Part shown: in pieces, positions 6,202 through 27,097 of the stretch | Layout of the letters: every line of letters begins with the position of its first letter | Position numbering within the stretch: position 1 is the stretch's first letter | Origin: a virus | DNA length: 35,846 bases | Reading direction: 5' to 3' (one strand) | Virus record (IMG/VR): IMGVR_UViG_3300031885_000062 | Span: 1 to 35,846 of that record | The notes under the pieces: generated by a model | What the model was told of the DNA's origin: nothing | Database searches by the model: none | What the model saw: the letters and a program-made list of their open reading frames with translations, nothing else | Made by a program: the position numbers and the translations under genes

Positions 6202-7998
6202 TTACGATTCCCATATTTTCGACTTCTTTCCGTGCTTCACCACTATCGGGACGCGGAATGCGACCTTAGGCGCTTCCAGCGTGCGCTTTATCAGCCCGTA
6301 CGCGCGGAAGCGTTCGGGCACGTCGAAGAGTATTTCGTCGTGCACGTTAGCCGCTATGCGCGCGCCGGCCTCGCGCGTCTCCCGATTATACCTCGGGGCC
6401 ACGGCTACCAGCCGGTCCTTGATGACGTCTGCCGCCGACGCCTGCATGACGGTGTTGAACGCGCGCCAGGTGAACTCTCTGCGAAGATGGCGCCGCCGGC
6501 CGTAGGCGTCTTTCACGTACCCGCGCTGGCGGGCTGTTACCGCAGCCTTGTGAGACGTCCGTTTGAGCTCGGGGAGGCGGGCGTGGTACGTGTCGTAAAC
6601 AGCGTAGGCCAGCGCGACGAGGCCCTTTTCCGTGTTCACGCTTTTCGCGAGCTCCTCTTCCTGTCGTAACATGCTGACACATAGGTCGCGCCCTCCGCCG
6701 TACCCCATCATGAAGTTCACGTTCTTGGCCGGCCGCCGGCTGATGTGGCACAGGTCGGCGACCCACTGGTGGAAATCGGTGTCGGGGTTCTCGAGGTACG
6801 CCCGTATCGCCTCTTCGTTCTGTATGTAGTGTACGATGATACGGAACTCTATCTGCGAGTAATCGTACGACAGAAACCGTCTGCCGGCGGGGGCGTGTAT
6901 CAGCGCCTTGGCTTCGGTAGATATCTGCTGGGCATTAGGCGTGTGACAGGCGAGACGGCCCGTGCGGACGCTCTGATTATACTCAGGATGAAGCAGGCCG
7001 TCGACCTGCAGCTTCAGGTACTGTTCGACGAACAAGCCGTTGAACGTGTGTATCTTTCGGTACGCGAGAATTTTATCAATCAGGCCGGTGAGCTTAGGGT
7101 CGTGGCGCACGTAGTAGAAGTACCGCGCGAGCGCCTCTTGGTCGAAGCTCGGGTCGCCCTTCTCTGTCCGGCCGAGCACGGGAAGGCCATACCGGTTACA
7201 CAGCACGTCGAAACAGTCTTCATTGGTGTGCGGGCGCATCGGCCCGCCCACTATGTCCGATATCTTTTCTTCGAGACGCAGCAGCCGGTACAGACACTCT
7301 AGCCGTTTCTTCTGAAGCTCTTCTACGTCTACGCGTAGGCCGTTCTCTTCTATGTCGTACAGGACCGGCGTCAACAGACGTTCTGTGTCGTAAACGTCTC
7401 TGCACTCTTCGGGCAGGCGTCGTCCGATACACCGGTACAGGTCTCTCGTAACCGACACGTCGAGACAACAGTACTCCCCGAGCACGTCTGCGGGAAGCCA
7501 CGAATAATTCTTAGCCTTGTCCCTGACGCTGCCCAAGAACCCGGAGACCCGTTTCTCGGCCCACGATATATCGGCGTTGAGCCAGTCTTTGGCCAGCGAC
7601 GTGAGGTCGTACTTGAACCGGTCGGAGTCTATCAGTTTAGCCGCGGTCAGCGTGTCGACTACAGACGTCCAGTTGTCTACGCCGTCGCGCGCCAAGAAGT
7701 GCATGTCGAATTTCACGTTGTGGTTTACGACGCGGCCGGCCCGCCGCACCAGTTCGCGCGTCCACAGGAAGGCCGGCTCCGGGGCCAAGTTCGCGGACGC
7801 GTCTCGGTGGCGCACCGGCAGGTAGTAAACTTTCTTCGAGTCGTCCCACGTCGCGCCGATTCCGCAGACGCGGTCGCCCTTCCACGGGCTCAAGCCGGTG
7901 GTCTCTACGTCGATGAACGCTTCAGCGGGCGCCTTCGGCAGCGGCGGCAGCGCGTCGCCCGGCTGGAGAATCTGTGCGCCATTTTTCAACGAAAGCAC
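6202..7998 (-). CDS. polA: DNA polymerase, family A, with 3'-5' exonuclease
   Basis: The replicative polymerase, 598 residues; no 5' nuclease domain. Exonuclease motifs: DVETTG (about 30-35), NHNVKFDMHF, and YCCLDVSVTRD. Polymerase motifs: RTGRLACHTPNAQQIS, motif A DYSQIEFR (Phe replaces the common Leu), motif B RRPAKNVNFMMGYG with Lys, Phe and Tyr in place, and motif C NVHDEILF. I chose GTG at 7998, five codons inside the longest frame, because GGAGGGG is properly spaced for it. It overlaps the end of the deaminase gene by 77 bases and is the last gene of the replication operon. Identification is certain. Confidence 0.97.
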   Translation of the reverse strand: MLSLKNGAQILQPGDALPPLPKAPAEAFIDVETTGLSPWKGDRVCGIGATWDDSKKVYYLPVRHRDASANLAPEPAFLWTRELVRRAGRVVNHNVKFDMHFLARDGVDNWTSVVDTLTAAKLIDSDRFKYDLTSLAKDWLNADISWAEKRVSGFLGSVRDKAKNYSWLPADVLGEYCCLDVSVTRDLYRCIGRRLPEECRDVYDTERLLTPVLYDIEENGLRVDVEELQKKRLECLYRLLRLEEKISDIVGGPMRPHTNEDCFDVLCNRYGLPVLGRTEKGDPSFDQEALARYFYYVRHDPKLTGLIDKILAYRKIHTFNGLFVEQYLKLQVDGLLHPEYNQSVRTGRLACHTPNAQQISTEAKALIHAPAGRRFLSYDYSQIEFRIIVHYIQNEEAIRAYLENPDTDFHQWVADLCHISRRPAKNVNFMMGYGGGRDLCVSMLRQEEELAKSVNTEKGLVALAYAVYDTYHARLPELKRTSHKAAVTARQRGYVKDAYGRRRHLRREFTWRAFNTVMQASAADVIKDRLVAVAPRYNRETREAGARIAANVHDEILFDVPERFRAYGLIKRTLEAPKVAFRVPIVVKHGKKSKIWES

Positions 7999-8434
7999 GG
8001 TCACCCCTCCCAAGTTCTTCGCGCGATAGGCACGGTATTCCGCATTTTTCTAGCAGACGGATGCCAGCGCGCGAACGATACACCTTATCGTACACTACAG
8101 CCACTATGCAGCCGACGTTCACGGCGAGGCGCGCGCAGTACAGGCACGGGGCGCGCGTCGTAAGCAGCACGCACGGCTCCGGCGTGCGGCCGAGTTTCAC
8201 CAGCGCGTTAGCCTCGGCGTGTACGCACCCGCAGCGCCCGCGCTGGCCGCTGCACGAGTCGTTGGGCGCGCCGCGCACGGGCCCGTTGTAGCCTATCGCC
8301 AGCGCTGCCGAACAGTCGACGGGCACCACTATCGCCCCCACGCGGTCGCGCTTACAGGTAGACAGCGTAGACAGCTTTCCGGCGCACGCCAGCAGCACAC
8401 GGAGCTTAGTCCTATAGCGTTTCGTAATGTTCAC
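7922..8434 (-). CDS. dCMP deaminase
   Basis: A zinc-dependent deaminase of 170 residues converting dCMP to dUMP. The zinc site is complete: HAEANAL (His, catalytic Glu) and APCLYCAR (PCxxC). The N-terminus (RDRVGAIVV, IGYNGPVRGAPND) matches the dCMP deaminase/ComEB branch rather than cytidine deaminases. The start is GTG at 8434 inside the end of the kinase gene. In T4-like nucleotide metabolism this enzyme supplies dUMP for thymidylate and drains unmodified dCMP. Here it lies beside a putative hydroxymethylase and kinase, which fits that role. The last 25 residues are Ala/Arg-rich and overlap polA. Confidence 0.88.
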   Translation of the reverse strand: MNITKRYRTKLRVLLACAGKLSTLSTCKRDRVGAIVVPVDCSAALAIGYNGPVRGAPNDSCSGQRGRCGCVHAEANALVKLGRTPEPCVLLTTRAPCLYCARLAVNVGCIVAVVYDKVYRSRAGIRLLEKCGIPCLSREELGRGDRAFVEKWRTDSPAGRRAAAAAEGAR

Positions 8435-8972
8435 GGCACAGCCCCAATCTGTCGATTATCGCCTGTCGTTTGGTGTATTCGTTCACTACATGTTCTACGT
8501 CGACCTCGTCAGCGAACGGCTTAGTGGAAGACAGTTCTATTACGTAATCGACGTCGAGCGCGAACACTGTCGACGAGGTCACGTACGTACTCATGGTTGA
8601 CAGACGGTACAGCGCATTTACGCGATGAAGAATTCCGGCCGGGTCTCCGGCGTGCGGGTGAAGGTGTTCCACGCTCATCCCGTATATCACTACGGTGTAC
8701 CCGCCCACTAAGCGCACCTTGGCGTCTAACAACTTGTACGCGAACGGATCCAGGTTCTGCGGCTCGTCGTGCGCCTCGCGGTACACTATTTCCGACAGGT
8801 GGAAACGGTCCATCACTACGTTTCGCGCGATGAATGGCAGGTAGCTGCGCCAGTAGTCCCACTTACTGGGCAGCGGGCCGAAGTGCCCGTACACGTGTTC
8901 TGGAAGCCTTTCCAGAAGACGTCTCGCGAACGTGGTCTTACCTGCGCCGTCTGGCCCCTCGATAATTAGCAT
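8412..8972 (-). CDS. Deoxynucleoside monophosphate kinase-like P-loop protein
   Basis: A protein of 186 residues resembling thymidylate kinases. The P-loop GPDGAGKTT is at residues 6-14, the substrate-binding DRFHLSE segment at about 55-61, and the rest is predominantly helical. The start is an ATG at 8972 with a perfect ribosome binding site (AAAGGAGG). In T4, gp1 phosphorylates hydroxymethyl-dCMP along with dTMP and dGMP, and an analogous role is inferred here because the upstream neighbour is the putative hydroxymethylase. An alternative is a P-loop kinase acting on hydroxymethylated bases already in DNA, as in 5-hydroxymethyluracil phages. The sequence alone does not separate these. Confidence 0.78.
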   Translation of the reverse strand: MLIIEGPDGAGKTTFARRLLERLPEHVYGHFGPLPSKWDYWRSYLPFIARNVVMDRFHLSEIVYREAHDEPQNLDPFAYKLLDAKVRLVGGYTVVIYGMSVEHLHPHAGDPAGILHRVNALYRLSTMSTYVTSSTVFALDVDYVIELSSTKPFADEVDVEHVVNEYTKRQAIIDRLGLCREHYETL

Positions 8973-9927
8973 GATACGCCTCCTTTAACAGTAGTGAAGA
9001 CACAGCGTCTGTGACGGACACGCCCGTCCAGTAACACGCGCACAGATTGGCTACGTCGGTTAACAGGCTCGACGGCAAGTCAACGGTAGCGCTGAGAAAT
9101 GTTTGGCGCTCGCGCGCTACTCTTTCGGCAGACAGGGCAGAGTTTATCGAAGAATCGAGACTGAATCGCGACCTCGTGACGGCGTGCGTCAGGTGCCTCC
9201 CGCGGTCTAGCGCTTCTTGAACAGCGTGCGCCAGCGCCGCCCCGGTAGCCCGTTCCGCGTCTCTAGAGTAGAGGTGCAGGCTGCCCACCTGGTGGACGTA
9301 TCTGCCGAGGTTCAGCCCCAGGCTCTGCGCGATAATCTGCTGCAAAGACGAAAATGCGAACAGGTCGTATGGCAAGCCTAGCCACGCGTCTTCGCTGCGC
9401 ATGGTGATTATCGCGTGCAGAAACCCGCCGCGCACGAGGAACTGGAGGGACAGTGTGCACGGCACGTCTCTCGGGTTCTCGTCTACCGCGCGTACCAGGT
9501 CGCCGGCGTTCCAGCAGACCATTACGGCCTGTCGCGTCTCCGGCTTCAAGGTCAGCAGTCGCATGACGTCTTCGAGTTGGCCCGGGCCGTTGGGCTTCCG
9601 CTGCCGATAGGCCGGGTCGGCCCACCAGCGTTTTCCGTAGGCGCCTGCGGCCGTGTCGCCGTCTGCGAATCGTCGGTAGTGTGGGGCGTAGGCGGCTATC
9701 ATCGATACGTCGTCGCTGCCCGACAGGTACCACAAAAGCTCTGCGCAGGCGTAGGCGGGGTCGAGACACCGGTCCGCATTCAGCACGAAATTGCGGTCGA
9801 TGTTCGACAGAGTCAGGCTAGCGCCTAGAATTTCCCGGGTCGCGCCGGCCCTGCTGTTGTGTCGTTCGCCGCGCAGCAGCTGGCCGAGCGCGTAGGCCCA
9901 CAGTTCATCGGCGGAGTTGAATTCCAT
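8938..9927 (-). CDS. Thymidylate synthase-family protein, probable dCMP hydroxymethylase
   Basis: A protein of 329 residues with thymidylate synthase fold motifs: AELLWYLSG with the folate-site Glu, the catalytic Cys157 in RDVPCT, then QF, and RSEDAWLGLPYDLF, which aligns with the RSxDxFLGLPFN nucleotide-binding motif. At the position where thymidylate synthases have Asn, this protein has Asp188, the change known in T4 dCMP hydroxymethylase to favour cytosine. The predicted reaction is dCMP plus methylene-tetrahydrofolate to 5-hydroxymethyl-dCMP. The ATG at 9927 has GGGAGGATAAC. A kinase, a deaminase and a dNTP pyrophosphatase-like gene surround it. The family is certain; substrate choice rests on one residue and context. 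Confidence 0.82.
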   Translation of the reverse strand: MEFNSADELWAYALGQLLRGERHNSRAGATREILGASLTLSNIDRNFVLNADRCLDPAYACAELLWYLSGSDDVSMIAAYAPHYRRFADGDTAAGAYGKRWWADPAYRQRKPNGPGQLEDVMRLLTLKPETRQAVMVCWNAGDLVRAVDENPRDVPCTLSLQFLVRGGFLHAIITMRSEDAWLGLPYDLFAFSSLQQIIAQSLGLNLGRYVHQVGSLHLYSRDAERATGAALAHAVQEALDRGRHLTHAVTRSRFSLDSSINSALSAERVARERQTFLSATVDLPSSLLTDVANLCACYWTGVSVTDAVSSLLLKEAYHANYRGARRRR

Positions 9928-9928
9928 G

Positions 9929-11038
9929 TTATCCTCCCGGCACGTAGTGCCTCATATCTAGTATTGTCACACGGTTTTCGGGGAATTCGACGTGTATGCG
10001 GTCGTCATCGGCCGGAGACGCGCCGTATTTTCCGTAGTCGGCTATAGCGCGCGCCAGCCATTCGGCTACGGCTGGCACGACGCCTTTAACGATTTGGCCT
10101 ACGGGATTTTCGCCGCGCGGAATTACCGGGACGCCCATTACGGCAGCCAGTTCTTGTAACATAAACCCGCGGTCTTGAAACGGGTGTACCCAGCACCGTG
10201 CGCCAGAGTGCATGGTAGGGCTGTGCCTGTGCGGGTAAATTCGGTACGGGGTGTACAAGCCGAACGGAATGTCCGACAGGCGCGCGTCCCACATGTCAGC
10301 GTATTTAGGCGACACCTTAGCTAACGTGTCGTAGTCGCGTTTAGCGAAGGCGGTGAGGCTCCAGCCTAACTGAAGGTACGGAATAATCTTTGACGGTTCG
10401 GGCTTAAATTCCTTGTAACACGTTTTGTCGTACGGCACGTCCCAGTTTTTAACGGGCCGCGCTTTAGTGTACCGAAACTCTTGTATACGGTCCCATACGG
10501 TAGCCTGTCGTTCGGGCAGTGCGGGGCGCGAAGGCCAGAACTGGCCGGAATCTGGAAGGTATGCTATGAAGAAATATCGTCTTCGTTTTTGCGCGTTGTT
10601 GAACGTCGCCGCGTTCACGAACAGGTGTAGAAGCCGGTACCGTTTCGGCCTGAAATAGTCTCTCCACAGTTCTTCGACGAGGGCGCGCCCCGTAGTGTAC
10701 GCGCCACAGACGCTTTCCCACACCACGAAACGCGGCCTTCGTTTTAGACTGAGGGCGTATTTGCACAGGTCCCAGATATCGATGTTCTGCTTAGCCGCGG
10801 CTCCGTGGCTTTTTCCCGAGAGGCGGCTGGTGAGCGAAGAGAAGCCCGTGCACCGCGGGTTGCCGAAGACTACATCGACCGCGAACTGCGGCCACGGCGG
10901 CGGCAGCGTGAGGATGCCCATGGACGAAGCCGTCTCGAGACCGAACCCATGGCTCTCGAGCTGGGCGCAGACTGTCATCGCCTCACGAAATCCGTACGTC
11001 TGCCATCCGGCAAATACGTGTACGCCTACGGCGTTCAT
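9929..11038 (-). CDS. C5-cytosine DNA methyltransferase homologue
   Basis: A protein of 369 residues with most C5-methyltransferase motifs: I (HVFAGWQTYGFREA, SAM loop), IV (GNPRCTGFSSL with catalytic Cys63), VI (VVWESV in place of the usual ENV), and VIII (NNAQKRRRYFFIA). It would transfer a methyl group to carbon 5 of cytosine or act on a related base. The ATG at 11038 overlaps the TGA of the pyrophosphatase gene. No restriction enzyme is nearby. Co-occurrence with a dCMP hydroxymethylase is odd because position 5 would already be occupied. It may protect DNA before substitution, or may have been reassigned to another modification step. Motif X and the target recognition region were not analysed. 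Confidence 0.82.
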   Translation of the reverse strand: MNAVGVHVFAGWQTYGFREAMTVCAQLESHGFGLETASSMGILTLPPPWPQFAVDVVFGNPRCTGFSSLTSRLSGKSHGAAAKQNIDIWDLCKYALSLKRRPRFVVWESVCGAYTTGRALVEELWRDYFRPKRYRLLHLFVNAATFNNAQKRRRYFFIAYLPDSGQFWPSRPALPERQATVWDRIQEFRYTKARPVKNWDVPYDKTCYKEFKPEPSKIIPYLQLGWSLTAFAKRDYDTLAKVSPKYADMWDARLSDIPFGLYTPYRIYPHRHSPTMHSGARCWVHPFQDRGFMLQELAAVMGVPVIPRGENPVGQIVKGVVPAVAEWLARAIADYGKYGASPADDDRIHVEFPENRVTILDMRHYVPGG

Positions 11039-11550
11039 CTAGACTGCCTCCTTGGCCCCCTAGAGCCCGTTCTTGGCACTTCAACTGCCTCGCCCGTGTG
11101 TCTGTACAACTGTGTCTTTTTCAGCACCTTCTTCAGGTCTGGGGGCCAGTAACTGGCGCCTTTATTCCGCAGTCTCGGGTCGTAGACAATCCGTTTAGCC
11201 TTAGTCATGTTCGACCAGTGTACTTCCCAGAACGCTTCGTACAGCGGAAGGCCGAAGGCGACAGCCGTTCCGATTACCACGTACAACAGGTCTGCCAGGC
11301 TGTCAAGCGTTTTCAGCGGGTCTCCGGCGGCCAAGCCGTCGAGCGTCTCAGACAGTTCTTCTATCATCAAGTGCGCGCGCACGTGCCGGTCGTCGTTGTG
11401 CGGAAGCAGGCTCTCCAGCTTATCAGATATTTCGCGCAGAGACGTAGAACAGTACAACAGGAACGGCTGAGCGCAGTCCGGCAGCTTAGCATCGACAGCG
11501 AAACGGTGTTTGACCATAAACTCGCGTATCACTTTCATCTCTTCTTTCAC
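11035..11550 (-). CDS. All-alpha NTP pyrophosphatase-like protein (possible dCTPase)
   Basis: A helical protein of 171 residues. Residues about 78-118 carry the metal-binding pattern of the MazG/dUTPase superfamily: EELSETLDG, then LDSLADLLYVVIGTAVAFG. Such enzymes hydrolyse dNTPs to dNMPs. In T4, a dCTPase of this superfamily (gp56) removes dCTP so that only hydroxymethylated cytosine is incorporated. Position one gene from the putative dCMP hydroxymethylase makes that role likely. The start is GTG at 11550, nine bases after AAGGAGG and one base past the stop of the primase-helicase gene. The basic C-terminal tail (SRGPRRQSR) lies at a GGCC-rich gene end. Substrate is inferred. Confidence 0.75.
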   Translation of the reverse strand: MKEEMKVIREFMVKHRFAVDAKLPDCAQPFLLYCSTSLREISDKLESLLPHNDDRHVRAHLMIEELSETLDGLAAGDPLKTLDSLADLLYVVIGTAVAFGLPLYEAFWEVHWSNMTKAKRIVYDPRLRNKGASYWPPDLKKVLKKTQLYRHTGEAVEVPRTGSRGPRRQSR

Positions 11551-11551
11551 G

Positions 11552-14413
11552 TCAGAAATCCTCCTTCACGTACGGCGGCCTGTTAGAGTCGCCTAGTTTC
11601 TTAGATGCCTGTAACGTCTTGAGAAAATCTATGAACGCCGACGACTTCCGGTACGACCGGCCTTCGCGGTACATCGCATGTTTGCGCACCAAGAAAGACA
11701 CGAGCTGTAGGCCGGCAGTCCGGTCCCACCCGCACCAGTCGCAGACGTCTCGCAGCTCTATGTCGTTGGTGTACAGGAATTGTTCCACGACGTCGGCTGG
11801 GAACGGGGTCTGCAGTAACAGTTTTTCTATCTCAGCGGCGTCGGTCAAGCAGCGCGTGGTCATTATCGCGGCCGAGAAATCGGCGTAGCCGAATGTCGGC
11901 TCGGAGTACACGCGGTCCAGCGTACGGTAAACATACTCGGCGTGACACGGCCGCACTATCACGCGCGAACGGTCTTCGTCGCACGAGAACGTCCGCGCCG
12001 CGAGCGCGGCAGACAGGCGCGCGAGCTTGTACCGCATAGAGCCTTTGTCGACTATGGGCACTATGTCACTGAATTTATCGCACAGTATTATCGCCTGTCG
12101 CAGTATCATGGACGTGGTCGCCTTTTCAAAGCGCACCCCGTTCTCGTCGCGGGTCCAGGCCCACAGTATCAGTCCGCGACACGCTTCCGATAGGTACGTA
12201 GGTTCTACCGTCGGCCGGTCAATCTGCAACCGGTTTATCACGGCCGCGTCTATTTGGCTCGCCGCGAGAACGAGACACGCGTCGAAACGGCGTATGTCTT
12301 CGAGGCCGCCCACGAGTTCTTTGATAGCGTCTACGCCGAAATTGTAGGCAGATATCGGCCGGTCGCTGCGAGGGTTCGACAAACCTATGAGACGCGTGCG
12401 CGCGTGCGTCCGGCGTTTCTCTATCTTCGGTATCTCGGCTACGCCCGACGAGCGCATATCGGTCAGTTTGCTAATCACTTCTGGGCTGGTGCCCTTGAGC
12501 TCTTCGAGCACGACGAGACGCCGGTCGTGCGTAGGTATGACGCCCCACGTCACCATCCATCGGCCGCCTATCTGCTGAAGGCCGCCGAGCAGGCCGGCTA
12601 CGCTGGCGTTCTTGCACTCCACCTTCTCGCCGAGGCCGTAGTGCCGCATCAGCCCGGCGGCTGTGTCCGATTTGCCCTGCGAGCTGTCGCCGACTATCAG
12701 CACTTCTACCCAACCCTTGACAGTCTGTCCGTCAAAGGCTATAAGCAGCGGGCTGTGCCAGGCGAAATCCATGAACAGGTGCAGGTCGGTTCTCTGGTAA
12801 ATGTGCGTCACGTTCGCCGACAAGTCGGCGTATATCGATTCGAGACGAGACGACACCGACTCAACCGTCCACTTCTTAGGCTGGAACACGAGTAACTGGT
12901 CGAGTTCTTCTTGCGTGGGCGAGTATACCGACAGTGCGTCTCGCACCGGTGTCGCAGAGCTGGAGAGCATTATGGCCTGTTGAGTCTTGGGGTCTGGCAG
13001 CACGCGGCCCTTGAATTCGTACGCGGTATTCAGCTCGAGGTCCGTGCCGACGAAATATGCCGGCTGCATCGTAGATTCTCCAGAACGGTTCGCTATTTCT
13101 AACTGCGGGGTCAGCCGTACGTCCGTGACAGAGAAGTACTCGATTGGGCTGAACGTAACCGACTTACAGACCGGAAGCCGGAGCGCCGCCGCGAGCGCGT
13201 CGCGCATCTGTTTCTTAGGCGCCGCTATGGTTTCCAGAAGGCCGGCCGCCTCCGGCGAAATTTCGGCGAACGAAATGCCTTCCTCGTTGGGCGGCTGGGG
13301 AAAAAGCGGACATATCTGACAGTTCTTCTGGGCCCTGTCGCACTTACAAGCCAGCCGTTTGGGGACGACATACGGCACAGGGTCCACGGCGGCTACGACT
13401 CCCTGAACGGCTATACGACGATTGATGAACTCGCCTCGCGTAGCTTGCACGAGGCGCAGCGGGACTATCTCTTTGGTAGACAGGTCTACGTCTACGTCCC
13501 GCGGGACCCACGCCTCGGTAGCGTCTAACAGTTTTTTGAAGTCTTTGGCTGTCGCGCGCTCGCGGCCCACCCAGTCATTGACGTCTCCGTGCGGGTACCG
13601 TTCGACAGACAGCGGCAGCCGGACTATCCCGAGCCACGAGGCCTCGTTGTACAGGTACGTACACAGCCGGTACGCCGCGACGCTTCCCGCCCGGTCTACG
13701 TCCATGCACACGTAGACGCGTTTGTCTCTAAATTTGGGCGAGAACTCGGGGCTCCAGCCGCCCTCCCCGCCCGTGGTACATACGGCGCCTATCTTGTAAT
13801 CGTTGAGCAAGGCCGCGGCGACTATGGCCTTAAGTTCGCCTCCGCACAGAACGACGGTGTCGTGTTTAAGTTGCTGTACGGGGTACAGACGAACGTGGCC
13901 GCGCCCGCGAAGACTTCGCATCTTGTCGGCCGACGGGGCGCCCGGCAGGTACCGTCTGACGTTCACGTACGCCCCGTTCTCATCCACGACGGGTATAGTT
14001 ATGCGGCCCTGTCCGTAACCTATCCGGTGTTCGCGTATCATGTCGTCTGTCAAGCCGCGCGCGTACAGTTCTCGCAGGAACGGCCCAGAGCCCCATATCG
14101 CTTTGTGGTACCGCTCTACCACCTCTGCGTCTATTCGCCGTTCTTCCGATATGCCGTACCGCGCGCTTACGTCTTCCCACAGCACGGCTCTCGTGGTCTT
14201 AAGCATGCCGGCCAAGAGAGTCAAGATATCGCCGCTCCGGCCGCAGCCGGCGGCGAAACACTTGAACACGCGCTTGTCCACGTTGACCGAACAGGACGGG
14301 ACGACGTCATCGTGAAACGGACACACGCACTTGATTTCCGAGGCGCTGATTATCTGAAACGCCCACCCGGCGCGTTCCAGTTCGGCGAAAACGCTGACGT
14401 TTTGAAGGTCCAT
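11552..14413 (-). CDS. DnaG-type primase fused to MCM-type replicative helicase
   Basis: 953 residues in one chain. Residues 28-62 form a CHC2 zinc finger (C31, H34, C52, C57). A TOPRIM domain follows at about 185-290 (CGGELKAI with Glu193; MDVDRAG with Asp238 and Asp240). Residues 315-490 resemble the MCM N-terminal OB fold with a four-Cys cluster (C356, C358, C365, C368). The AAA+ module has Walker A GDSSQGKS (575-582), Walker B LVVLEE (633-638), a sensor-1 Asn at 680 in LIGLSNPRS, and the MCM-like arginine finger IRRFD (707-711). A helical lid follows. It should unwind DNA and prime the lagging strand with the family A polymerase. The fusion is unusual; domain calls are by eye but several signatures agree. 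Confidence 0.85.
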   Translation of the reverse strand: MDLQNVSVFAELERAGWAFQIISASEIKCVCPFHDDVVPSCSVNVDKRVFKCFAAGCGRSGDILTLLAGMLKTTRAVLWEDVSARYGISEERRIDAEVVERYHKAIWGSGPFLRELYARGLTDDMIREHRIGYGQGRITIPVVDENGAYVNVRRYLPGAPSADKMRSLRGRGHVRLYPVQQLKHDTVVLCGGELKAIVAAALLNDYKIGAVCTTGGEGGWSPEFSPKFRDKRVYVCMDVDRAGSVAAYRLCTYLYNEASWLGIVRLPLSVERYPHGDVNDWVGRERATAKDFKKLLDATEAWVPRDVDVDLSTKEIVPLRLVQATRGEFINRRIAVQGVVAAVDPVPYVVPKRLACKCDRAQKNCQICPLFPQPPNEEGISFAEISPEAAGLLETIAAPKKQMRDALAAALRLPVCKSVTFSPIEYFSVTDVRLTPQLEIANRSGESTMQPAYFVGTDLELNTAYEFKGRVLPDPKTQQAIMLSSSATPVRDALSVYSPTQEELDQLLVFQPKKWTVESVSSRLESIYADLSANVTHIYQRTDLHLFMDFAWHSPLLIAFDGQTVKGWVEVLIVGDSSQGKSDTAAGLMRHYGLGEKVECKNASVAGLLGGLQQIGGRWMVTWGVIPTHDRRLVVLEELKGTSPEVISKLTDMRSSGVAEIPKIEKRRTHARTRLIGLSNPRSDRPISAYNFGVDAIKELVGGLEDIRRFDACLVLAASQIDAAVINRLQIDRPTVEPTYLSEACRGLILWAWTRDENGVRFEKATTSMILRQAIILCDKFSDIVPIVDKGSMRYKLARLSAALAARTFSCDEDRSRVIVRPCHAEYVYRTLDRVYSEPTFGYADFSAAIMTTRCLTDAAEIEKLLLQTPFPADVVEQFLYTNDIELRDVCDWCGWDRTAGLQLVSFLVRKHAMYREGRSYRKSSAFIDFLKTLQASKKLGDSNRPPYVKEDF

Positions 14414-14472: not shown

Positions 14473-15279
14473 CTACATATCTTCTGCGCCCTGTTCTTCG
14501 ACGTCGATGTCTGCGCGCAAGCGCATCTGGCCGTGCAGCTTAACGAACGCTTCGTGCATGGCTTTGAAACCGGCGTACTTCGCCTCCGGGACCCACGGAT
14601 TATCGCGCGGGTTTTCGCACTCGAGGCCGTACCACGAGCCTTTGTTGTTGACGCGCAGACGGATACTCGTGTAAAACCGGCACGCGTAAATAGGCGCCCG
14701 GCGCATCTGTATCAGGCCGGCCAGTTTGGCTCCGGCCACGAATTCGCCTCGCGCGAACGTCAACAACACTGGTACGTCGTTAGACGCAGCCAGGTCTTCT
14801 GCGACTATGAGATAGTTGAGGTGTTCGCAGTGCCGGACCACGAACCCGTCGATCTCTTCTTCCCGCATCCGGGGGTTGCGGGCCTTTTTGGCGATGTCGC
14901 TCTTCGGGTCGAGCGAACGTTCGCGCACGGCCGGAAGCTGTCCGCGCGTTTCGAGCGGGTTCCACGTCACGTATTCCGGCCAGAAGAACACCGGCGTGAA
15001 GTGAAAGCCCGAGTCTTCCGGTTTCACGGGGGCGTTCTTGGCATCGCGGTTGAGTGCCACCACCGCCACGTTGAGCGGCGACAGCAACACGTCTCCGGGG
15101 TTGGCTATCTCGAGCAGAGATTCGCCAGACTGCCTCTGGACGATTTTGAGGCGCGGCGGCATTACGTACTGGCCCAGCGTCTCAGTGCCCACGACGTCTG
15201 TTTCCACGTACGCCGGCCGTTTCAGTACGGCCGGGCCCGCTGGCACCAGCACGGGCAACGAACTGTTTCTCTTTTTCAT
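14473..15279 (-). CDS. Conserved replication-module protein, candidate ssDNA-binding protein
   Basis: A protein of 268 residues. The region TLGQYVMPPRLKIVQRQSGE, followed by a Pro-Gly-Asp turn and FHFTPVFFWPEYVTWNP, matches a phage family regularly found beside polymerases and primases and often annotated as single-stranded DNA-binding. The C-terminus is acidic (DIDVEEQGAEDM), as in ssDNA-binding proteins that recruit partners through an acidic tip. I chose ATG 15279 with GAGGAGACGCAG; a GTG 20 codons upstream sits directly against its ribosome binding site and is less likely. The ssDNA-binding role is from memory of the family pattern plus the acidic tail, so moderate confidence. Confidence 0.6.
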   Translation of the reverse strand: MKKRNSSLPVLVPAGPAVLKRPAYVETDVVGTETLGQYVMPPRLKIVQRQSGESLLEIANPGDVLLSPLNVAVVALNRDAKNAPVKPEDSGFHFTPVFFWPEYVTWNPLETRGQLPAVRERSLDPKSDIAKKARNPRMREEEIDGFVVRHCEHLNYLIVAEDLAASNDVPVLLTFARGEFVAGAKLAGLIQMRRAPIYACRFYTSIRLRVNNKGSWYGLECENPRDNPWVPEAKYAGFKAMHEAFVKLHGQMRLRADIDVEEQGAEDM

Positions 15280-15316
15280 CTGCGTCTCCTCTACAATCAC
15301 GGTAAATTTACGGGAC

Positions 15317-15325
15317 AGTATACCA
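15317..15325 (-). promoter_or_regulatory. Possible extended -10 promoter
   Basis: TGGTATACT on the minus strand (extended -10 TGn plus TATACT, one mismatch to TATAAT), about 38 bases before the ATG of the ssDNA-binding-like gene. No good -35 box is present. A strong Shine-Dalgarno-like AAAGGAGGTGA just upstream has no well-spaced conventional start, which may mark an RNA feature rather than a gene. Confidence 0.3.
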
Positions 15326-15403
15326 GTTCGTCTGTTCACCTCCTTTCGGCGATGTGCAGCCCTTCGTCCCGACCCAGAGCTTCAAGCGGCCCTTCGTCGC
15401 GCG

Positions 15404-15481
15404 TCACAAAAGTAGAAACGCGTATAGGACTATCGCGGCGAGACACGCCAGAACGAACAAGGTTTCATACGCCGTTTTCAT
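15404..15481 (-). CDS. 25-residue single-span membrane peptide
   Basis: ATG at 15481, GGAG ten bases upstream, overlapping the end of the deoxyribosyltransferase-like gene by 17 bases. After MKTAYETL the chain is one continuous hydrophobic helix (FVLACLAAIVLYAFLLL) running to the stop. This is the composition of a small phage membrane protein, but too little sequence exists to identify it. The 64 bases between its stop and the next leader contain two GACGAAGGGC repeats. Confidence 0.45.
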   Translation of the reverse strand: MKTAYETLFVLACLAAIVLYAFLLL

Positions 15482-15929
15482 TAGTAACTTCTCCATAAGC
15501 CGCGCGCATCTTATTTATTTCGAAAAGTAGGCTATCCAAGTTGTCGACCACGGCGTCGGCCATCAGGTACATCAGTTCGGCCGGCGCCGTTTCGCTCCGG
15601 GACAGACAGACTATCACGCGCTTGCCGGCGCCCTTGCACCAGCCTGCCTCCAGGTGCGCGCTGCGCCCGCACGAAAGCAGCAACACGCACACGTCGCACA
15701 GCTGCAGGGCCGCCATGTCCGCGCGAAAACCGACGCGCGCGCGCGCGTGTCGTAGGGCCGCCATGAACGTACGGCTGTCCCACGTCTCCCAGTTCGCGTC
15801 TACCTGTGACCACTTGAAGGCGTCGTTCCTGCGGAAGTCGTACACCCGGTACAGGTTTTTTTCTAACAGGTTCACTACAGCCGTTATCCGGTTTTCGTTC
15901 TTCCACGACGAGGCGACGTACACGTTCAT
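15465..15929 (-). CDS. Nucleoside 2-deoxyribosyltransferase-like protein
   Basis: A Rossmann-like protein of 154 residues. The N-terminus VYVASSWKNE, the central VYDFR and FKWSQVDANWETW segments, and CDVCVLLLSCGRSAHLEAGW with an active-site-like Glu match the deoxyribosyltransferase/DUF4406 superfamily, which transfers or hydrolyses the base of deoxynucleosides or deoxynucleotides. In a phage with altered cytosine metabolism it could clear or salvage particular nucleotides; this is inference. The start is an ATG at 15929 with AGGAG six bases upstream. A GTG one codon earlier is less well spaced. Confidence 0.75.
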   Translation of the reverse strand: MNVYVASSWKNENRITAVVNLLEKNLYRVYDFRRNDAFKWSQVDANWETWDSRTFMAALRHARARVGFRADMAALQLCDVCVLLLSCGRSAHLEAGWCKGAGKRVIVCLSRSETAPAELMYLMADAVVDNLDSLLFEINKMRAAYGEVTNENGV

Positions 15930-15938
15930 CACGGTCTC

Positions 15939-16835: not shown

Positions 16836-17174
16836 TCAGTGGAACGCGAGCCACGCGTCTCTGTCGAGCGTTCTCTCGACGTACGCCTCGGCAGATGTAT
16901 TGTAGAACAACATGGTCACTTTGCCATAGTACGCTACCATAGCTGCCGCGGATATCATCAGCGGAACTATACGGCCCGTCACACAGAAAGCGTCTTGTGT
17001 CGGAGAGAATTTCAGTTCTCTCAGCCGGGAGAGAACAGCGTTCCCAAACTGTTCGCTGTCGAAAATGCTGCACCGGCGGGTAGTCCGGTCAAACACGAAG
17101 ACAGTCTCGCCGTACGCCTTAGCTTTACTGATGTCGATGTAATCAGGCTCTTCCAATAGGAATACGCGGCTCAT
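16836..17174 (-). CDS. Conserved hypothetical protein, 112 residues
   Basis: The ATG at 17174 overlaps the TGA of the helicase gene. The N-terminal 55 residues are beta-rich. Residues about 58-95 (PTQDAFCVTGRIVPLMISAA, then a hydrophobic VAYYGKVTMLFYNTSAEAYV) look like a buried helix-strand unit rather than a membrane span. No motif is recognised. Together with the downstream 204-residue gene it forms a tightly linked pair behind the helicase. Confidence 0.65.
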   Translation of the reverse strand: MSRVFLLEEPDYIDISKAKAYGETVFVFDRTTRRCSIFDSEQFGNAVLSRLRELKFSPTQDAFCVTGRIVPLMISAAAMVAYYGKVTMLFYNTSAEAYVERTLDRDAWLAFH

Positions 17175-19135
17175 TCTTCGTCTCCTTCCGGAAAGACTTC
17201 GAGCAGCCGATTGAGTATGTCGTGGATGTCTTGTAACTGGTACGCGGATATCCGTTTCTGTAAGACGCGTGCCCGTATCTCTTCATCGATGGTGCCGGGC
17301 ACTACCAGGTCTGTGTAGTGGACCGGCTCGCGGGTTCCGCGACGGTGAGTCCGGTCTTCGCTCTGCGCGCGCGCCGTCATGCTCCAGTTCTGCGAGTAGT
17401 ACACGACGTGCTGGCAGCCGGGCCCCTCGCCGGTTTCCACGTTGTACCCGAGAAGGTTCACGCCTATGCCTCCGGCCACCGGGTTGCCGATGAGCACGCG
17501 CGTGTCGGGGTCTTCGTTGAACGCCTTCACGTTAGCCGCGCGCTGTTCATCGTCCGTGGCCCCGTAGAGCGTGACGCACTTAACGCCCTCGAGCACAAGC
17601 GTCTCGACTATCAGTTTGATGTCGTGCACGAAACAGCACCAGACGATGACTTTTTCTTCGCGCAACCGGTCTTTAAGCAGGGCCATTAGCGCGTCGAGTT
17701 TCGGGTTCGGTATGAGCGTCTCCGTCGCCCCCGGCTTTAGCGTTTCGTCGTCCCAGCGGTCGTCCCAGCGGACGAACCCGCTCGTGATTTGTGCCAGGCG
17801 CAGAAGTTTAGTCAGCACGTTGCTGACGGAGAGCGTGTTCGGTTCGCGAAGCTTGTCGCGTATTTCTACGGCCAGCCGCGTGGCCAATTTGATGTAGAGG
17901 TTCCGTTGCACCGGGGTCATCGCCACTTCCACGATGTCGTAGAGTTTATCGGGAAGGTCCGGCAGCGCTTCTTTCTTCTGTATGATGAACGCCAGCCGCG
18001 CCAGCCGCTCCTGTAGCAGCGGGACGTTCGTGTAGCCGGTTAGAATTTCGCCGTACCGCGCCTTCGCCCACCGGCCGTAGTAGTACCTGAACGATTTGAA
18101 CGACGCGAACCCGCTCAAGCCTTCTCCCAGAAACTCTAACTGCGTGTAGAGGTCAAAGAGCATGTTCGTCGTCGGCGTGCCCGTTAGGCACATTCTCTGC
18201 GCGCAAATTTCCCTGAGCTTCTGCGCCTGTCTCCACCGTCTCGTGTAAGACGCCTTAATGTAGTGCGACTCGTCTAACACGCACAGGTCCCACTGCACGG
18301 CGCTGAGCACGTCCCACGCGCAGGTCATAGCCTCGTAGGAACAGATGACAGCTACCCAGCGGGCGTCGTCTCCGTTCTTCTTGAACGCTTCGACGAGCGT
18401 ACGAACGCGATTGAACTTTCCGCCGCGCAGCACGGCGACCCGCCCGGCCACCGTGCTGAACCGGCCGAACTCGTTGCGCCAGTTGAGGCGAACATTCTTG
18501 GGGCAGACTATCAACGCGCGATACATCCGCGAAGAAGAGTAGTTAGGGCCGCTGGCTTCATTACAGATGCGGGCGATTACCACCGGTGTCTTGCCGGTGC
18601 CCTGTTCCATGAACAGCGCCGCGCTCTCCTGCCTGAGACACCCGTACAGCGCCACGGTTTGGTATGGAGACAGCGGGAGGTTCGCGTTATCGAGATGTTC
18701 GAATTGAGGGACGATTTTCTCGGCGCGGTACTTGGCGCGGGCGCGGGCCTTGAAAGACTGCGACATGAACCTGGCAAGAAGATATTTGAAGGTCACCGTC
18801 GCTGCCTCGTCTTCGAACTGCATCTGTCCAGACGGCCAGAGCGTGTAGACGAGTAGTACCGTGAAATCGGTAGCCGGCACCGCGTAACCTAACGCGCCGT
18901 TATCTTCATTGATTACTACGTTCTGGCGTTCTGGAAACCGTCCGAAGAAGTAGTGGCGCGCGTCGTAACTCGCGAAACGAGTGGGCTTGTTAGAAGTAAC
19001 CCACAAGACGAACTTCTTTTCGGGAAGAGAAACGTGAAGCACGTCTTCGGGTTCGAGGTCTAATTTGGCGAAGACTTTCGCCGACGCGTCACACAACGGC
19101 TCAAAAAATTCTCTCGTATTTTCCTGTCCAATCAT
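17171..19135 (-). CDS. SNF2-type superfamily 2 helicase
   Basis: A protein of 654 residues, the first gene of the replication operon. Helicase motifs in order: Q-like SPYQTVAL, I MEQGTGKT, Ia ALIVCPKNVRLNW, II VLDESH, III LTGTP, then the C-terminal domain with IVWCCFVHDIK, VLIGNPVAGGIGVNLLG and VI QSEDRTHRRG. The first 150 residues are not conserved helicase sequence. Phage homologues translocate on duplex DNA and help start replication or remodel protein-DNA complexes. I chose ATG 19135 with AGAGGACATAGAA; the longest frame begins 25 codons earlier, upstream of which lies the promoter at 19188-19216. Family certain, start likely. Confidence 0.9.
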   Translation of the reverse strand: MIGQENTREFFEPLCDASAKVFAKLDLEPEDVLHVSLPEKKFVLWVTSNKPTRFASYDARHYFFGRFPERQNVVINEDNGALGYAVPATDFTVLLVYTLWPSGQMQFEDEAATVTFKYLLARFMSQSFKARARAKYRAEKIVPQFEHLDNANLPLSPYQTVALYGCLRQESAALFMEQGTGKTPVVIARICNEASGPNYSSSRMYRALIVCPKNVRLNWRNEFGRFSTVAGRVAVLRGGKFNRVRTLVEAFKKNGDDARWVAVICSYEAMTCAWDVLSAVQWDLCVLDESHYIKASYTRRWRQAQKLREICAQRMCLTGTPTTNMLFDLYTQLEFLGEGLSGFASFKSFRYYYGRWAKARYGEILTGYTNVPLLQERLARLAFIIQKKEALPDLPDKLYDIVEVAMTPVQRNLYIKLATRLAVEIRDKLREPNTLSVSNVLTKLLRLAQITSGFVRWDDRWDDETLKPGATETLIPNPKLDALMALLKDRLREEKVIVWCCFVHDIKLIVETLVLEGVKCVTLYGATDDEQRAANVKAFNEDPDTRVLIGNPVAGGIGVNLLGYNVETGEGPGCQHVVYYSQNWSMTARAQSEDRTHRRGTREPVHYTDLVVPGTIDEEIRARVLQKRISAYQLQDIHDILNRLLEVFPEGDEE

Positions 19136-19187
19136 TTCTATGTCCTCTGTATTCGAGTCGTATGTCCTGTCCAATTCCACGCAACAT

Positions 19188-19216
19188 ATTATAACGTACA
19201 CCAGTCCCAAAGTAAA
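19188..19216 (-). promoter_or_regulatory. Sigma70-type early promoter
   Basis: On the minus strand: -35 TTTACT (4 of 6 consensus), 17-bp spacer, -10 TATAAT (perfect). It lies in the AT-rich gap between the GT2 gene and the helicase, about 45-50 bases upstream of the helicase ATG. This is the best promoter match I found by eye in the window, and it fits the start of the replication operon after the end of the tail genes. Confidence 0.7.
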
Positions 19217-19230
19217 CAGGAAAGTTCAAA

Positions 19231-20484
19231 TTATTTTTTCACGGGTTGAGAGAGACGGGACACAATTTCTGCGTACGTAATCGGGCGGCCTTCGCGCTTT
19301 TTCTCCTCTACGTCACAGTCTGGGCACCATTCCAGCAAATCGCTCTCCTCATCGTCGCCCCAACACCGTTCTCTTTTCGTGTGGTGGCCGCGCCGAGCGA
19401 GAGCCTGAGCGCGCTGATTTTTCGTAAAACCTGCGCGAGTAGTGCAGAACCGTTCGAAGAATCGTTGCCAATTCTGTGGCGAAAACAGCGCGCCTGAGGC
19501 GTAACAGATATTCATCAGCTTATCATCGGCGACGTTCTTCACGGGATTAGACGCACGATAGAAGTGCCGCGTGAAGTAATCGCGCGACACGTAGACGGGG
19601 ACGCGCATCAGCGTCGCCTTGAAAGCCATGGGCTCGAGCAGCCAGCCCCAGCAGCCGAGCGAACTTTCCCAAAGAAGGCCGGTGGGCCTACGAAGCTCTT
19701 CTATCGTTTCGCGGCTGTAGGTGTAACACGCGCCTATCATCGCCTGCACGCGCGCCCACGGCTCTTCGGGGCGCCTCCATTTTTCGCCGTCGCGGTGGGG
19801 CCACTTCTCACCTATCCACCGTACGGCGAAACAGTCTCTCGGCTTCTTCACCAGGTACCCGCCCCACTGGCGCATTTTAGATTCGTTCTCCCAGCCGTAC
19901 GACGCAGAACACGCGAGACACTTCTCCACGGCGGCGCGCCGCGCCACGTTTTCTAGAACACCTTTCGGTATTCTCATGTGCGAATCAAGCACCCCTACCA
20001 CGTCAGCGCCGTTCTGTAGCGCGATGTCGGTGCCCGCGTTGAGGTTAGCGCCTATGCCGCGCGGCTTTTCGTTCCGCACGACGCGCCCGAACGGCACGCG
20101 CGCCGGCGAATCAGAGCCGTCGTCTATCACCAGTAAATCGAGGTCGACGTTCGGGTCGACGCGGCTATCTTTCACGGCCTGGCACGTAGACGCCAACAGC
20201 GGTTCGTTGCGCGTGCTTATTACGTACGTGACTTTCAGCCGACGCAGCCACCCCGGGTGGAACACCCCCCACTTGTCGTGCCGGCACACGACCCCGTTGT
20301 TGCCGGTCAGCTTCTTGAACAGGCACTCGCGGTGCGTCGACGCCCACCTAATCGTGCAGGCCGGGTCTACGTCACACGCTTTACAGGTGGCCCGCCGTTC
20401 GGCAATCAAGACGCTGGCGTGCGTCGGAAACGCCGGGTCTCGCGGCCGCGCCCACGCCGCGCGTATCGCGTCTTCTGCGTTCAC
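19231..20484 (-). CDS. Family 2 glycosyltransferase, GT27-like, with N-terminal Cys-rich zinc-like domain
   Basis: A protein of 417 residues. Residues about 25-70 contain five to seven Cys in a CxxC-type arrangement (CKACDVDPAC, then ECLFKK and VCRHDKWG), as in cysteine domains often attached to phage glycosyltransferases. The GT-A domain follows: VTYVISTRNEP, LLVIDDGS, NLNAGTDIALQNGADVVGVL and then DSHMRIP. The DSH triad is the metal/UDP-binding motif seen in polypeptide GalNAc-transferases, and the later GCWGW and FTRHFYR segments also resemble that family. It would transfer a sugar from a nucleotide sugar. It lies one gene from the Thr-repeat protein, making a virion protein target plausible. 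The start is GTG 20484, overlapping the upstream TGA. Confidence 0.83.
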   Translation of the reverse strand: MNAEDAIRAAWARPRDPAFPTHASVLIAERRATCKACDVDPACTIRWASTHRECLFKKLTGNNGVVCRHDKWGVFHPGWLRRLKVTYVISTRNEPLLASTCQAVKDSRVDPNVDLDLLVIDDGSDSPARVPFGRVVRNEKPRGIGANLNAGTDIALQNGADVVGVLDSHMRIPKGVLENVARRAAVEKCLACSASYGWENESKMRQWGGYLVKKPRDCFAVRWIGEKWPHRDGEKWRRPEEPWARVQAMIGACYTYSRETIEELRRPTGLLWESSLGCWGWLLEPMAFKATLMRVPVYVSRDYFTRHFYRASNPVKNVADDKLMNICYASGALFSPQNWQRFFERFCTTRAGFTKNQRAQALARRGHHTKRERCWGDDEESDLLEWCPDCDVEEKKREGRPITYAEIVSRLSQPVKK

Positions 20485-21008
20485 CGTACCGCCTCCGCCA
20501 GTGCGTCCAACAGGCCGTGCTTTTTCGCCAGCCGTATTCCGTCGTCCTGAGACAATCGCCCCCGGTCTACCAGCGTGTTGATGAGCGCCGCCGCATCTGC
20601 GTCTGTGGCCAGCGCCTTCAGCGTCTCTATGCTCTTTCGCACGTGCTCTTCCGTGGCGAACTTATCGGCCGGCATCAGCAGCACGCGCGCCGCGCTCTGC
20701 CAATATACCACGTACCGCAGCCACGCGTTATCTCTCGGGTCTGTAGACGTCCCGTTGAAACGACAGACCCGGCACAACGGCCTGTCGCACCCGTAGCCAC
20801 CCACTAGCCACGCGCCCACGGCAGAGCATCCGGCCGCTTCTATCGTGTACGTCTGGCCCGTATCGTACTTGCCGGTTATCGACACCGGGGCCCCGCGCGC
20901 CGGACACGCGTCGACGGCTGCGTCTGCGCCGGCTGCGTCGAGCTCAGGGGTGGTCGCGCCGACGTGGCCCGCTCGCGCGGCGAATTCGTCTGGGTCTATA
21001 GTCGTCAT
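20481..21008 (-). CDS. Hypothetical protein, 175 residues
   Basis: The ATG at 21008 overlaps the stop of the Thr-repeat gene. Residues 35-90 contain six Cys (including GYGCDRPLCRVCRFNG). The second half is helical and acidic (PADKFATEEHVRKSIETLKA). The mix suggests a Cys-bearing beta domain followed by a helical bundle. It shares the Cys richness of its neighbours on both sides. No lysozyme, peptidase or fibre motif is visible. A chaperone or structural partner for the Thr-repeat protein is one possibility, from position only. Confidence 0.6.
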   Translation of the reverse strand: MTTIDPDEFAARAGHVGATTPELDAAGADAAVDACPARGAPVSITGKYDTGQTYTIEAAGCSAVGAWLVGGYGCDRPLCRVCRFNGTSTDPRDNAWLRYVVYWQSAARVLLMPADKFATEEHVRKSIETLKALATDADAAALINTLVDRGRLSQDDGIRLAKKHGLLDALAEAVR

Positions 21009-22057
21009 ACGCAGTGCCTCTGGGGATAACAGTTGTCATTGATATACTTGTACTTGTAAGGCGTGCCACCGGCGCACGGCTTATCGGGGTTTATCGCGTG
21101 GAAGTGGCACATGAGGTCTTCGTTTTCCATAAAACACTGCGACACGTACCCGTCGATACAGGCCTTGTCCATCGTCGCCCAGTTATCCGCGGTACAGTCG
21201 TATGGCGGAGTAGCCGTGCATTGGGCGGCGGCATAGAAACAGCACTTATCGGGGTGCGGATTAACCCACTCGGTTGTCGTCGCGACTTTCGTAGTGGTCG
21301 GTACTTTCGTTGTCGTCGCGACTTTCGTAGTGGTCGGTACTTCCGTTGTCGTCGCGACTTTCGTAGTGGTCGGTACTTCTGTAGTAGTCGGGACTTCCGT
21401 AGTGGTCGGTACTTCTGTAGTAGTCGGGACGCCCGTTGTCGTGCCGGGCGCTTCCGTTGTCGTCGCGACTTCCGTAGTGGTACTGGGGCCGGTAGTTGTC
21501 GGTTCGCAAGAACACGTCCCGACGACTTCGAGCGTCATCGGGAAGTCGCAACCCACGGCGCGCTCGCGATGGTACGTGCCGACGGGGCTCGATAGACTGG
21601 GGTCCTGAGACATCGGGCAGTCGTAACTGAAGTCGCTCCAGTACGCCGCGTCGCCGAGCCCGTGACAGTCGATAATCACCCGCCAGTAACACCGGCCGTC
21701 TCCCCAGTAGTTGGCGAACGGAGTGAGAAACGCGTGGTAGACCATCGGACACGGGTACTGCGGCGCGCCGCAATCCGCCCAGCCTTCCGAGCCCGGCGTG
21801 TACCGCCACCGGCACAGAACGCCGTTGTCCCACTTCTGTACGCAGATGTCACAGTCGTCTACGCAGTGACAGAAACCGGTCATCTCCGACAGTGGCCAAC
21901 GAATCAGGTAACAGTCCGGCCAACCGGAACAGGGGTACTCTACCCAACAGTCCCAACAGATTTCGGTAGTGGTGCAACAGCACTCGTCGGATACGGCGAC
22001 CTTGCCGTCTACTATAAGGAGTTTTCCGCCGTACGTCATTGCTCCGTAGTCTGGCAC
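21005..22057 (-). CDS. Cys-rich distal tail protein with mucin-like Thr repeat
   Basis: 350 residues in three parts. Residues 1-185 form a Cys/Trp-rich domain with 20 Cys. Residues 186-263 are a mucin-like linker with 13 TTT triplets in a mostly 6-residue period (V-P/A-T-T-T-E/K). Residues 264-350 are a second Cys-rich domain with 10 Cys. No signal peptide. As one of the last tail-operon genes it is a candidate receptor-binding or tail-tip protein, with the Thr stalk separating two disulphide-capable domains. The adjacent GT2 enzyme could glycosylate it. The start is taken as GTG 22057 (GAGGG upstream); ATG 22039 is an alternative. No homologue is recognised. Confidence 0.75.
   Translation of the reverse strand: MPDYGAMTYGGKLLIVDGKVAVSDECCCTTTEICWDCWVEYPCSGWPDCYLIRWPLSEMTGFCHCVDDCDICVQKWDNGVLCRWRYTPGSEGWADCGAPQYPCPMVYHAFLTPFANYWGDGRCYWRVIIDCHGLGDAAYWSDFSYDCPMSQDPSLSSPVGTYHRERAVGCDFPMTLEVVGTCSCEPTTTGPSTTTEVATTTEAPGTTTGVPTTTEVPTTTEVPTTTEVPTTTKVATTTEVPTTTKVATTTKVPTTTKVATTTEWVNPHPDKCCFYAAAQCTATPPYDCTADNWATMDKACIDGYVSQCFMENEDLMCHFHAINPDKPCAGGTPYKYKYINDNCYPQRHCV
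21269..21502. repeat. Tandem ~18-bp repeats encoding the Thr-rich stalk
   Basis: In-frame tandem units of about 18 bp, each encoding V-P/A-T-T-T-E/K, with silent and Glu/Lys or Pro/Ala variation between units. Such arrays change length by slippage or recombination, so the stalk length may vary between isolates. Confidence 0.9.
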
Positions 22058-26536: not shown

Positions 26537-27097
26537 CTACACCCCGGTCGTCGTAGTTGCCCCGGCCGTAGTGGTAGTCGGCGCTATGTACGCGTCGCCG
26601 ATGACTATGATGTTGACGTCGACCGCGCCGGCCCCGTCATTGTTGTTCGTGAACCGCAGGGTAGCTCTGGCGGCTAACACCTCCCAGCCCTCTGCTGTAT
26701 CGCAGACGAATATGGCCGCGCCGCCCGGCTTAACGTTGAGAGCGTCGCCGGAGAGAAACGGCCCGTACCACGGGTCGGCAACGCCGCCATCGACTTTGAG
26801 ACTAGACCCGGTCGTCCGGCTCGAAGCGCTCTGCACGATGAGAACCTTCACCGAGCCGAACACTACGGCGTTCCCGTTGAGGTCTTTCAGCGAACCGTCC
26901 TGCAAATCGATAGTCTGCGGCGCGCCTATGGCTACCGATACGTCGTCGTGCCACATTAGGTTCGCTTGCTGTTCGCCGTTGCCGTCGGAGAACGCGAAGT
27001 TTATCTGCTTGGTAAGCGGGTTGATGACGGTGCCTAAACCGTACGCCAAGGTCCCGGTCATCTGCACAGACGTTTTTATGTTGCCTGTAAGGTCCAT
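26537..27097 (-). CDS. Virion structural protein with Thr-rich C-terminus
   Basis: A beta-rich protein of 186 residues. Segments GNGEQQANLMWHDDVSVAIG, DLQDGSLKDLNGNAVVFGSV and GGVADPWYGPFLSGDALNVK form a pattern recurring in phage structural proteins near head-tail genes; its exact place in the virion is unknown. The C-terminus ends APTTTTAGATTTTGV, closely resembling the capsid protein's tail. The ATG at 27097 has AAAGGAG. It lies between tail terminator and tail tube genes, so it may decorate the head or tail tube. Confidence 0.7.
   Translation of the reverse strand: MDLTGNIKTSVQMTGTLAYGLGTVINPLTKQINFAFSDGNGEQQANLMWHDDVSVAIGAPQTIDLQDGSLKDLNGNAVVFGSVKVLIVQSASSRTTGSSLKVDGGVADPWYGPFLSGDALNVKPGGAAIFVCDTAEGWEVLAARATLRFTNNNDGAGAVDVNIIVIGDAYIAPTTTTAGATTTTGV

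Follow-up and report, generated by a model that had tools for sequence, protein, structure and literature searches.

The minus-strand gene that runs from position 14413 to position 11552 of the 35,846-nucleotide viral sequence analyzed here (IMG/VR record IMGVR_UViG_3300031885_000062, the whole of which is called the window) encodes a 953-residue protein (P0001) that joins a DnaG-type primase to an MCM-type helicase. In the reading that we favor, with a probability of about 0.75, this protein is the phage's own primase-helicase, in which a CHC2/TOPRIM module placed before an MCM ring would allow one chain both to unwind the fork and to prime the lagging strand. The assignment draws on the open reading frame, Pfam profiles, an AlphaFold2 model, and Foldseek searches. 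The frame begins with an ATG and extends for 953 codons, and the plus strand across 11552-14413 is broken by stops. An initial annotation of this DNA had reported such a fusion; the 953-residue chain is real, but rather than being an isolated case it is one member of a widespread phage family, and its gene lies on the minus strand, as do all other features of the window given below.

The N-terminal half has the elements of a DnaG-type primase. Residues 25-74 (14192-14341) form a CHC2-type zinc finger (PF01807, E = 4.4e-10) with conserved ligands C31, H34, C52, and C57, and a TOPRIM primase core occupies about residues 100-300 (13514-14116). The Pfam TOPRIM match of the window protein alone was sub-threshold (0.038), and the family profile matched both DnaG (2au3, 1e-19) and the primase part of T7 gp4 (1nui, 9.5e-9). 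A DNA primase family was also the PHROG match of this half. Both domains had been proposed in the initial annotation, and these matches bear them out. Relatives were gathered from cultured phages and viral contigs; 62 full-length proteins were aligned, with the helicase halves aligned separately, and conservation was counted over 98 distinct members that carry the DnaG-type primase-MCM fusion.

The catalytic site of the TOPRIM core is altered. Two motifs are described for TOPRIM primases, a DxD and a first motif whose conserved glutamate is taken to be the general base (PMC4538821). In the window protein the DxD residues D238 and D240 (13694-13702) are present and, like E193, are invariant in 98 of 98 members, and the zinc ligands are kept. 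The first motif reads CGGELKA (residues 190-196, 13826-13846), and the position of the canonical glutamate is held by G191. Glycine is found at this position in 53 of the 98 members and alanine in 4 (57 in all, window included); by motif, the census consists of 52 GGExK, 32 EGExD, 9 EGExK, 4 AGEx(K/D), and 1 GGExD. As a check of the register, a profile of the GGE members alone was aligned to S. aureus DnaG, and G191 fell opposite the glutamate of its EGFMD motif. The register is therefore sound, and an alignment slip is ruled out as the cause of the absent glutamate. On the helicase tree described below, EGExK groups lie between the EGExD and the GGExK members, an order which suggests that the change of D195 to lysine came first and that E191 was lost afterwards. 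We think that E193, two residues further on, replaces the canonical glutamate. T7 gp4 has a residue matching E193 as well (motif EGE).

Because the canonical glutamate is absent, the primase half of the window protein may be inactive. In that case the primase module, like that of animal Twinkle, would have lost catalysis and would now serve the MCM helicase as a DNA-binding or loading domain, while primers come from the host. The glycine and alanine substitutions at the position of the described general base fit this explanation, as does one family member from which the primase half is gone (L205:4725-6887, in IMGVR_UViG_3300017971_000101). Its protein consists of the MCM half and a short N-terminal stretch, which may be a primase remnant, and a search of its 44.9-kb record found neither CHC2 nor TOPRIM, so the helicase can apparently do without a fused primase. 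However, R153 and K164, both basic, are invariant or nearly so in the window's clade, as are the zinc ligands, E193, and the DxD pair D238 and D240, which is unexpected for a dead site, and the glutamate is also absent from two members outside the main clade (L092 and L119) in which the rest of the site shows no decay. We regard a dead primase as unlikely, though the chief contender, and continue with the reading in which the phage's own primase-helicase primes as well as unwinds.

Scans of viral contigs gave 186 confirmed candidates with a first alignment and at least 281 with a second. Among the matches listed, the retrieved ORFs, some of them from overlapping loci, comprised 139 with a DnaG-type half, 51 with an archaeo-eukaryotic primase (AEP) half, and 6 with neither, of which five were cut by contig ends. 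Cultured members with the CHC2/TOPRIM-MCM architecture of the window, at 24-33% identity to it, are carried by the phages Krampus/Hager (Microbacterium), Wollypog (Arthrobacter), BSTP12 (Bacillus), Youna2 (Weizmannia), and SV21 (Paenibacillus). Unlike the window protein, most of these retain the EGExD glutamate, and SV21 has alanine there; also unlike the window, the actinobacterial members (Microbacterium and Arthrobacter) lie near DnaE-like polymerase genes. The cultured-phage homologues are annotated only as "primase" or "primase/helicase," and in MW202657 (27488-30334, from Manatee Spring) the fusion is mis-annotated as "DNA directed DNA polymerase." When 27 records, some of which may be fragments, were searched whole with HMMs for a separate primase or DnaB, neither DnaB_C nor Prim-Pol was found, and CHC2 genes numbered at most one per record, this being the fusion itself. 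The fusion is the sole ring-helicase candidate found in 27 of 27 records. The DnaB or DnaG of the host could still serve phage replication. One record (G011) contains, besides its fusion, a second MCM-like AAA+ match (E = 1.7e-6) at 66906-67439, in a separate 477-residue frame.

In the window the gene sits within a compact replication cassette. The order of genes is SNF2, a gene of unknown function, a Pam3 gp34-like gene, primase-MCM, nucleotide pyrophosphohydrolase, thymidylate synthase, thymidylate kinase, dCMP deaminase, and PolA, and from SNF2 to PolA it is kept, all on one strand, in most close relatives. A family A polymerase working alongside the fusion had been claimed initially, and a family A DNA polymerase with a 3'-5' exonuclease is indeed encoded downstream on the same strand (6202-8013; PF00476, 8.8e-47), syntenic in relatives. 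Directly downstream of the fusion is the nucleotide pyrophosphohydrolase gene (11035-11550), also syntenic, and directly upstream is the Pam3 gp34-like gene (14473-15339; PF23977 at 2.4e-5, under its cut-off), which adjoins the fusion in 64 of 90 relatives. The upstream end of the cassette is marked by the conserved SNF2-type helicase (17171-19210; PF00176, 1e-27). Genes for thymidylate synthase (8938-9927), a thymidylate kinase-like protein (8412-8972), and dCMP deaminase (7922-8434) adjoin the replication genes. The phage DNA may contain a modified base, as one relative has in its homologous region a gene labelled "pyrimidine hmase." A C-5 cytosine methyltransferase gene (9929-11038) lies within the cassette and was found in the flanks of only 22 of 90 relatives.

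Other genes of the window were noted in passing. A nucleoside deoxyribosyltransferase-like gene (15465-15932; phrog_12607, 2e-41) has no counterpart in the flanks of the 90 relatives, and a family 2 glycosyltransferase gene (19231-20484; PF00535, 3.3e-8), which separates the SNF2 helicase gene from the structural genes, is likewise not found beside the fusion in relatives. Among the structural genes, the predicted proteins at 21005-22057 and 26537-27097 contain threonine-rich runs (TTTEVPTTTE..., TTTTAGATTTT), and the former has no Pfam match. The protein encoded at 1903-2370 has a sigma-70 region 4 match (6e-8) and may be a sigma factor of the phage or a regulator of transcription.

The protein might also be an accessory enzyme of restart or recombination, with bulk replication carried out by host DnaB-DnaG. 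A precedent is BcMCM, an AEP-MCM fusion encoded by a prophage of Bacillus cereus (McGeoch and Bell 2005; Samuels 2009; Sanchez-Berrondo 2012; all cited in PMC4538821), for which PMC4538821 reports 3'-5' helicase, primase, and polymerase activity and suggests a role in restart. Against an accessory role are the placement of the gene in a cassette with PolA and nucleotide genes that is kept across many phages and the standing of the fusion as the only candidate for a ring helicase in all records searched whole. We regard an accessory role as improbable.

The C-terminal half has the domain order of an MCM protein. An OB-fold domain with a zinc-binding insertion, of the MCM N-terminal type, covers about residues 314-490 (12944-13474) and was assigned from Foldseek alignments to MCM spanning about 550-680 columns and from strands in the AlphaFold2 model (333-343, 348-357, 420-435, 450-455, 464-473, and 480-489). 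The Cys cluster noted initially in this OB region is a second zinc cluster (C358, C365, C368, and C416; 13166-13342), conserved in 95-98 of 98 members. Profiles, Foldseek, and Pfam matches in relatives place an MCM-type AAA+ domain at about residues 500-730 (12224-12916), with Walker A GDSSQGKS (575-582, 12668-12691), Walker B VVLEE (634-638, 12500-12514), the sensor-1 asparagine N680 (12374-12376), and the arginine finger R709 in IRRFD (12287-12289). The Walker A, sensor-1, and arginine-finger motifs named in the initial annotation hold up; K581, N680, and R709, like E638, are invariant in 98 of 98 members. The model adds a C-terminal winged-helix-like domain at about residues 857-925 (11639-11845), consisting of helices 859-867, 872-881, 887-894, and 898-910 and a hairpin at 914-917/920-923. 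Residues 314-858 match phrog_18685, a family listed as "unknown function" (6e-70).

Structure and profile searches both point to MCM. The AlphaFold2 models had a pLDDT of 90.0 and a pTM of 0.69 for the full-length protein and of 91.2 and 0.85 for the helicase half. With either model the top 50 Foldseek matches in the PDB were all MCM (best 8.6e-24 for the full model and 8.8e-24 for the helicase half alone); the alignments spanned about 550-700 columns, OB/zinc domain included, with TM-scores up to about 0.6. When the helicase-half alignment was used for a profile search of the PDB, 21 MCM sequences were matched, the best at 2.6e-5, the next non-MCM match had an E-value of 0.95, and no DnaB or RecA match was obtained. 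A profile from nine diverse members reached MCM2 in the PDB at 5.4e-7, and family profiles matched MCM PDB chains at 5e-7 to 3e-5. Matches in a library of viral structures were mostly partial and to primases. Hairpins of the model at residues 610-623 and 658-670 are, by their order along the chain, candidates for the helix-2 insert and the pre-sensor-1 hairpin. Based on the sequence profiles and the predicted structure, the C-terminal half is an MCM helicase with an OB/zinc domain, an AAA+ module, and a winged helix. This agrees with the initial proposal of an MCM-like rather than DnaB/RecA-like motor, for which the best structural match was the stated test: a RecA-fold DnaB/T7 helicase or another AAA+ clade would have spoken against it, and every one of the top 50 matches is MCM.

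Membership of another pre-sensor-insert clade, such as Mg chelatase, YifB, or MoxR, is very improbable for the AAA+ half. The window protein alone scores 16.5 bits against Pfam MCM, under the curated cut-off of 23.3, and one divergent member also matches Mg_chelatase (0.0016), yet the cut-off is passed in 10 of 27 related records, an AEP-fused relative scores 3.4e-13 against PF00493, and the PDB profile and Foldseek searches, in which the OB/zinc domain lies within the alignments, returned MCM only and led us to reject this candidate. The usual phage arrangement, in which a RecA-fold motor drives a primase-helicase of the T7 gp4 type, is hardly credible here and was rejected by the same searches. 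The primase half does resemble that of T7 gp4, but the C-terminal half matches no RecA or DnaB protein by profile or fold.

The same helicase is found behind a different primase. Bacillus phage vB_BboS-125 (MH884509), whose depositors remarked on a likeness to an MCM family protein, encodes a 1027-residue protein with an AEP primase (PF01896, 3.9e-10; FDLD acidic motif present) ahead of an MCM half (PF00493, at the score given above) that is 28% identical to that of the window over 639 residues (E = 1e-66). This protein is phrog_18685 (end-to-end match, 1978 bits). The AEP-MCM architecture recurs, at 56-73% identity, in some twenty more viral contigs and in one Bacillus velezensis plasmid record. 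In a tree of 119 helicase halves, which is unrooted and was built without an archaeal MCM outgroup, the AEP fusions are all set apart from the other members by a single branch (SH-aLRT 98), and one primase exchange, between AEP and DnaG type, is therefore enough to account for these sequences within one helicase lineage. The longest-branched DnaG-type members on this tree are L092 and L119, whose placement may be wrong.

Comparison with known systems suggests how the fusion may work. Like the window protein, archaeal MCM and MCM2-7 have an OB/zinc N-domain, an AAA+ module with an arginine finger, and a winged helix, at about 12-16% identity to it; the Walker B of the window's clade differs from that of cellular MCM in ending in EE. 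Cellular MCM also has a helical A subdomain, which was not found in the model of the window protein and appears to be missing: the stretch between the end of the TOPRIM core and the first OB strand is only about 30 residues long. The primase would therefore occupy the place of this subdomain. The MCM half would assemble into a hexameric AAA+ ring with the primase half fixed to its N-tier and, by analogy with MCM biology and BcMCM, would travel 3' to 5' along the leading-strand template as it unwinds the fork. On the displaced lagging strand, the primase half would synthesize RNA primers for use by the phage family A polymerase. MCM translocates 3' to 5', with its N-tier first in the eukaryotic replisome, so a primase attached to that tier would sit at the fork front beside the excluded lagging strand. 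In T7 gp4, too, a single chain carries a CHC2-type and TOPRIM primase ahead of a ring helicase, but its motor has a RecA fold and moves 5' to 3', and its ring encircles the lagging strand beside which the window's primase would sit. A fuller scenario is tentative, and we hold it to be possible rather than probable: the TOPRIM catalytic glutamate would have moved two positions on (GGExK), the bacterial-type primase at the front of a 3'-5' MCM ring would prime the excluded lagging strand from a position like that of Pol alpha at the N-tier in the eukaryotic replisome, and the helicase lineage would have traded one primase for another from an unrelated superfamily.

Earlier publications describe MCM helicases from phages and from plasmids of bacteria, as well as fusions of MCM to AEP primases (PMC5862659, PMC4538821). 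BcMCM and the vB_BboS-125 protein are, like the window protein, phage MCM helicases with an N-terminally fused primase, but theirs is archaeo-eukaryotic (PriS-like) and that of the window is of the CHC2/TOPRIM, DnaG type. Along its whole length, the vB_BboS-125 MCM half is homologous to that of the window, and kinship with BcMCM rests on this phage. The AEP-MCM combination being already known in phages, the DnaG-type primase on an MCM helicase is what is added here; we found no paper on such a fusion, and surveys of viral replication proteins may contain an earlier mention. Records labelled "primase" or "DNA polymerase" could be re-annotated as primase-MCM, and the absent TOPRIM glutamate probes the role of that residue in primases. 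MCM is the textbook helicase of archaea and eukaryotes, and in this broad set of tailed phages it is the sole ring helicase found, joined to a bacterial-type primase. Because one helicase lineage carries both primase types, what a primase must do on a 3'-5' as opposed to a 5'-3' helicase can be asked directly, and cultured members on Microbacterium, Arthrobacter, and Bacillus subtilis make this question of primase-helicase polarity testable.
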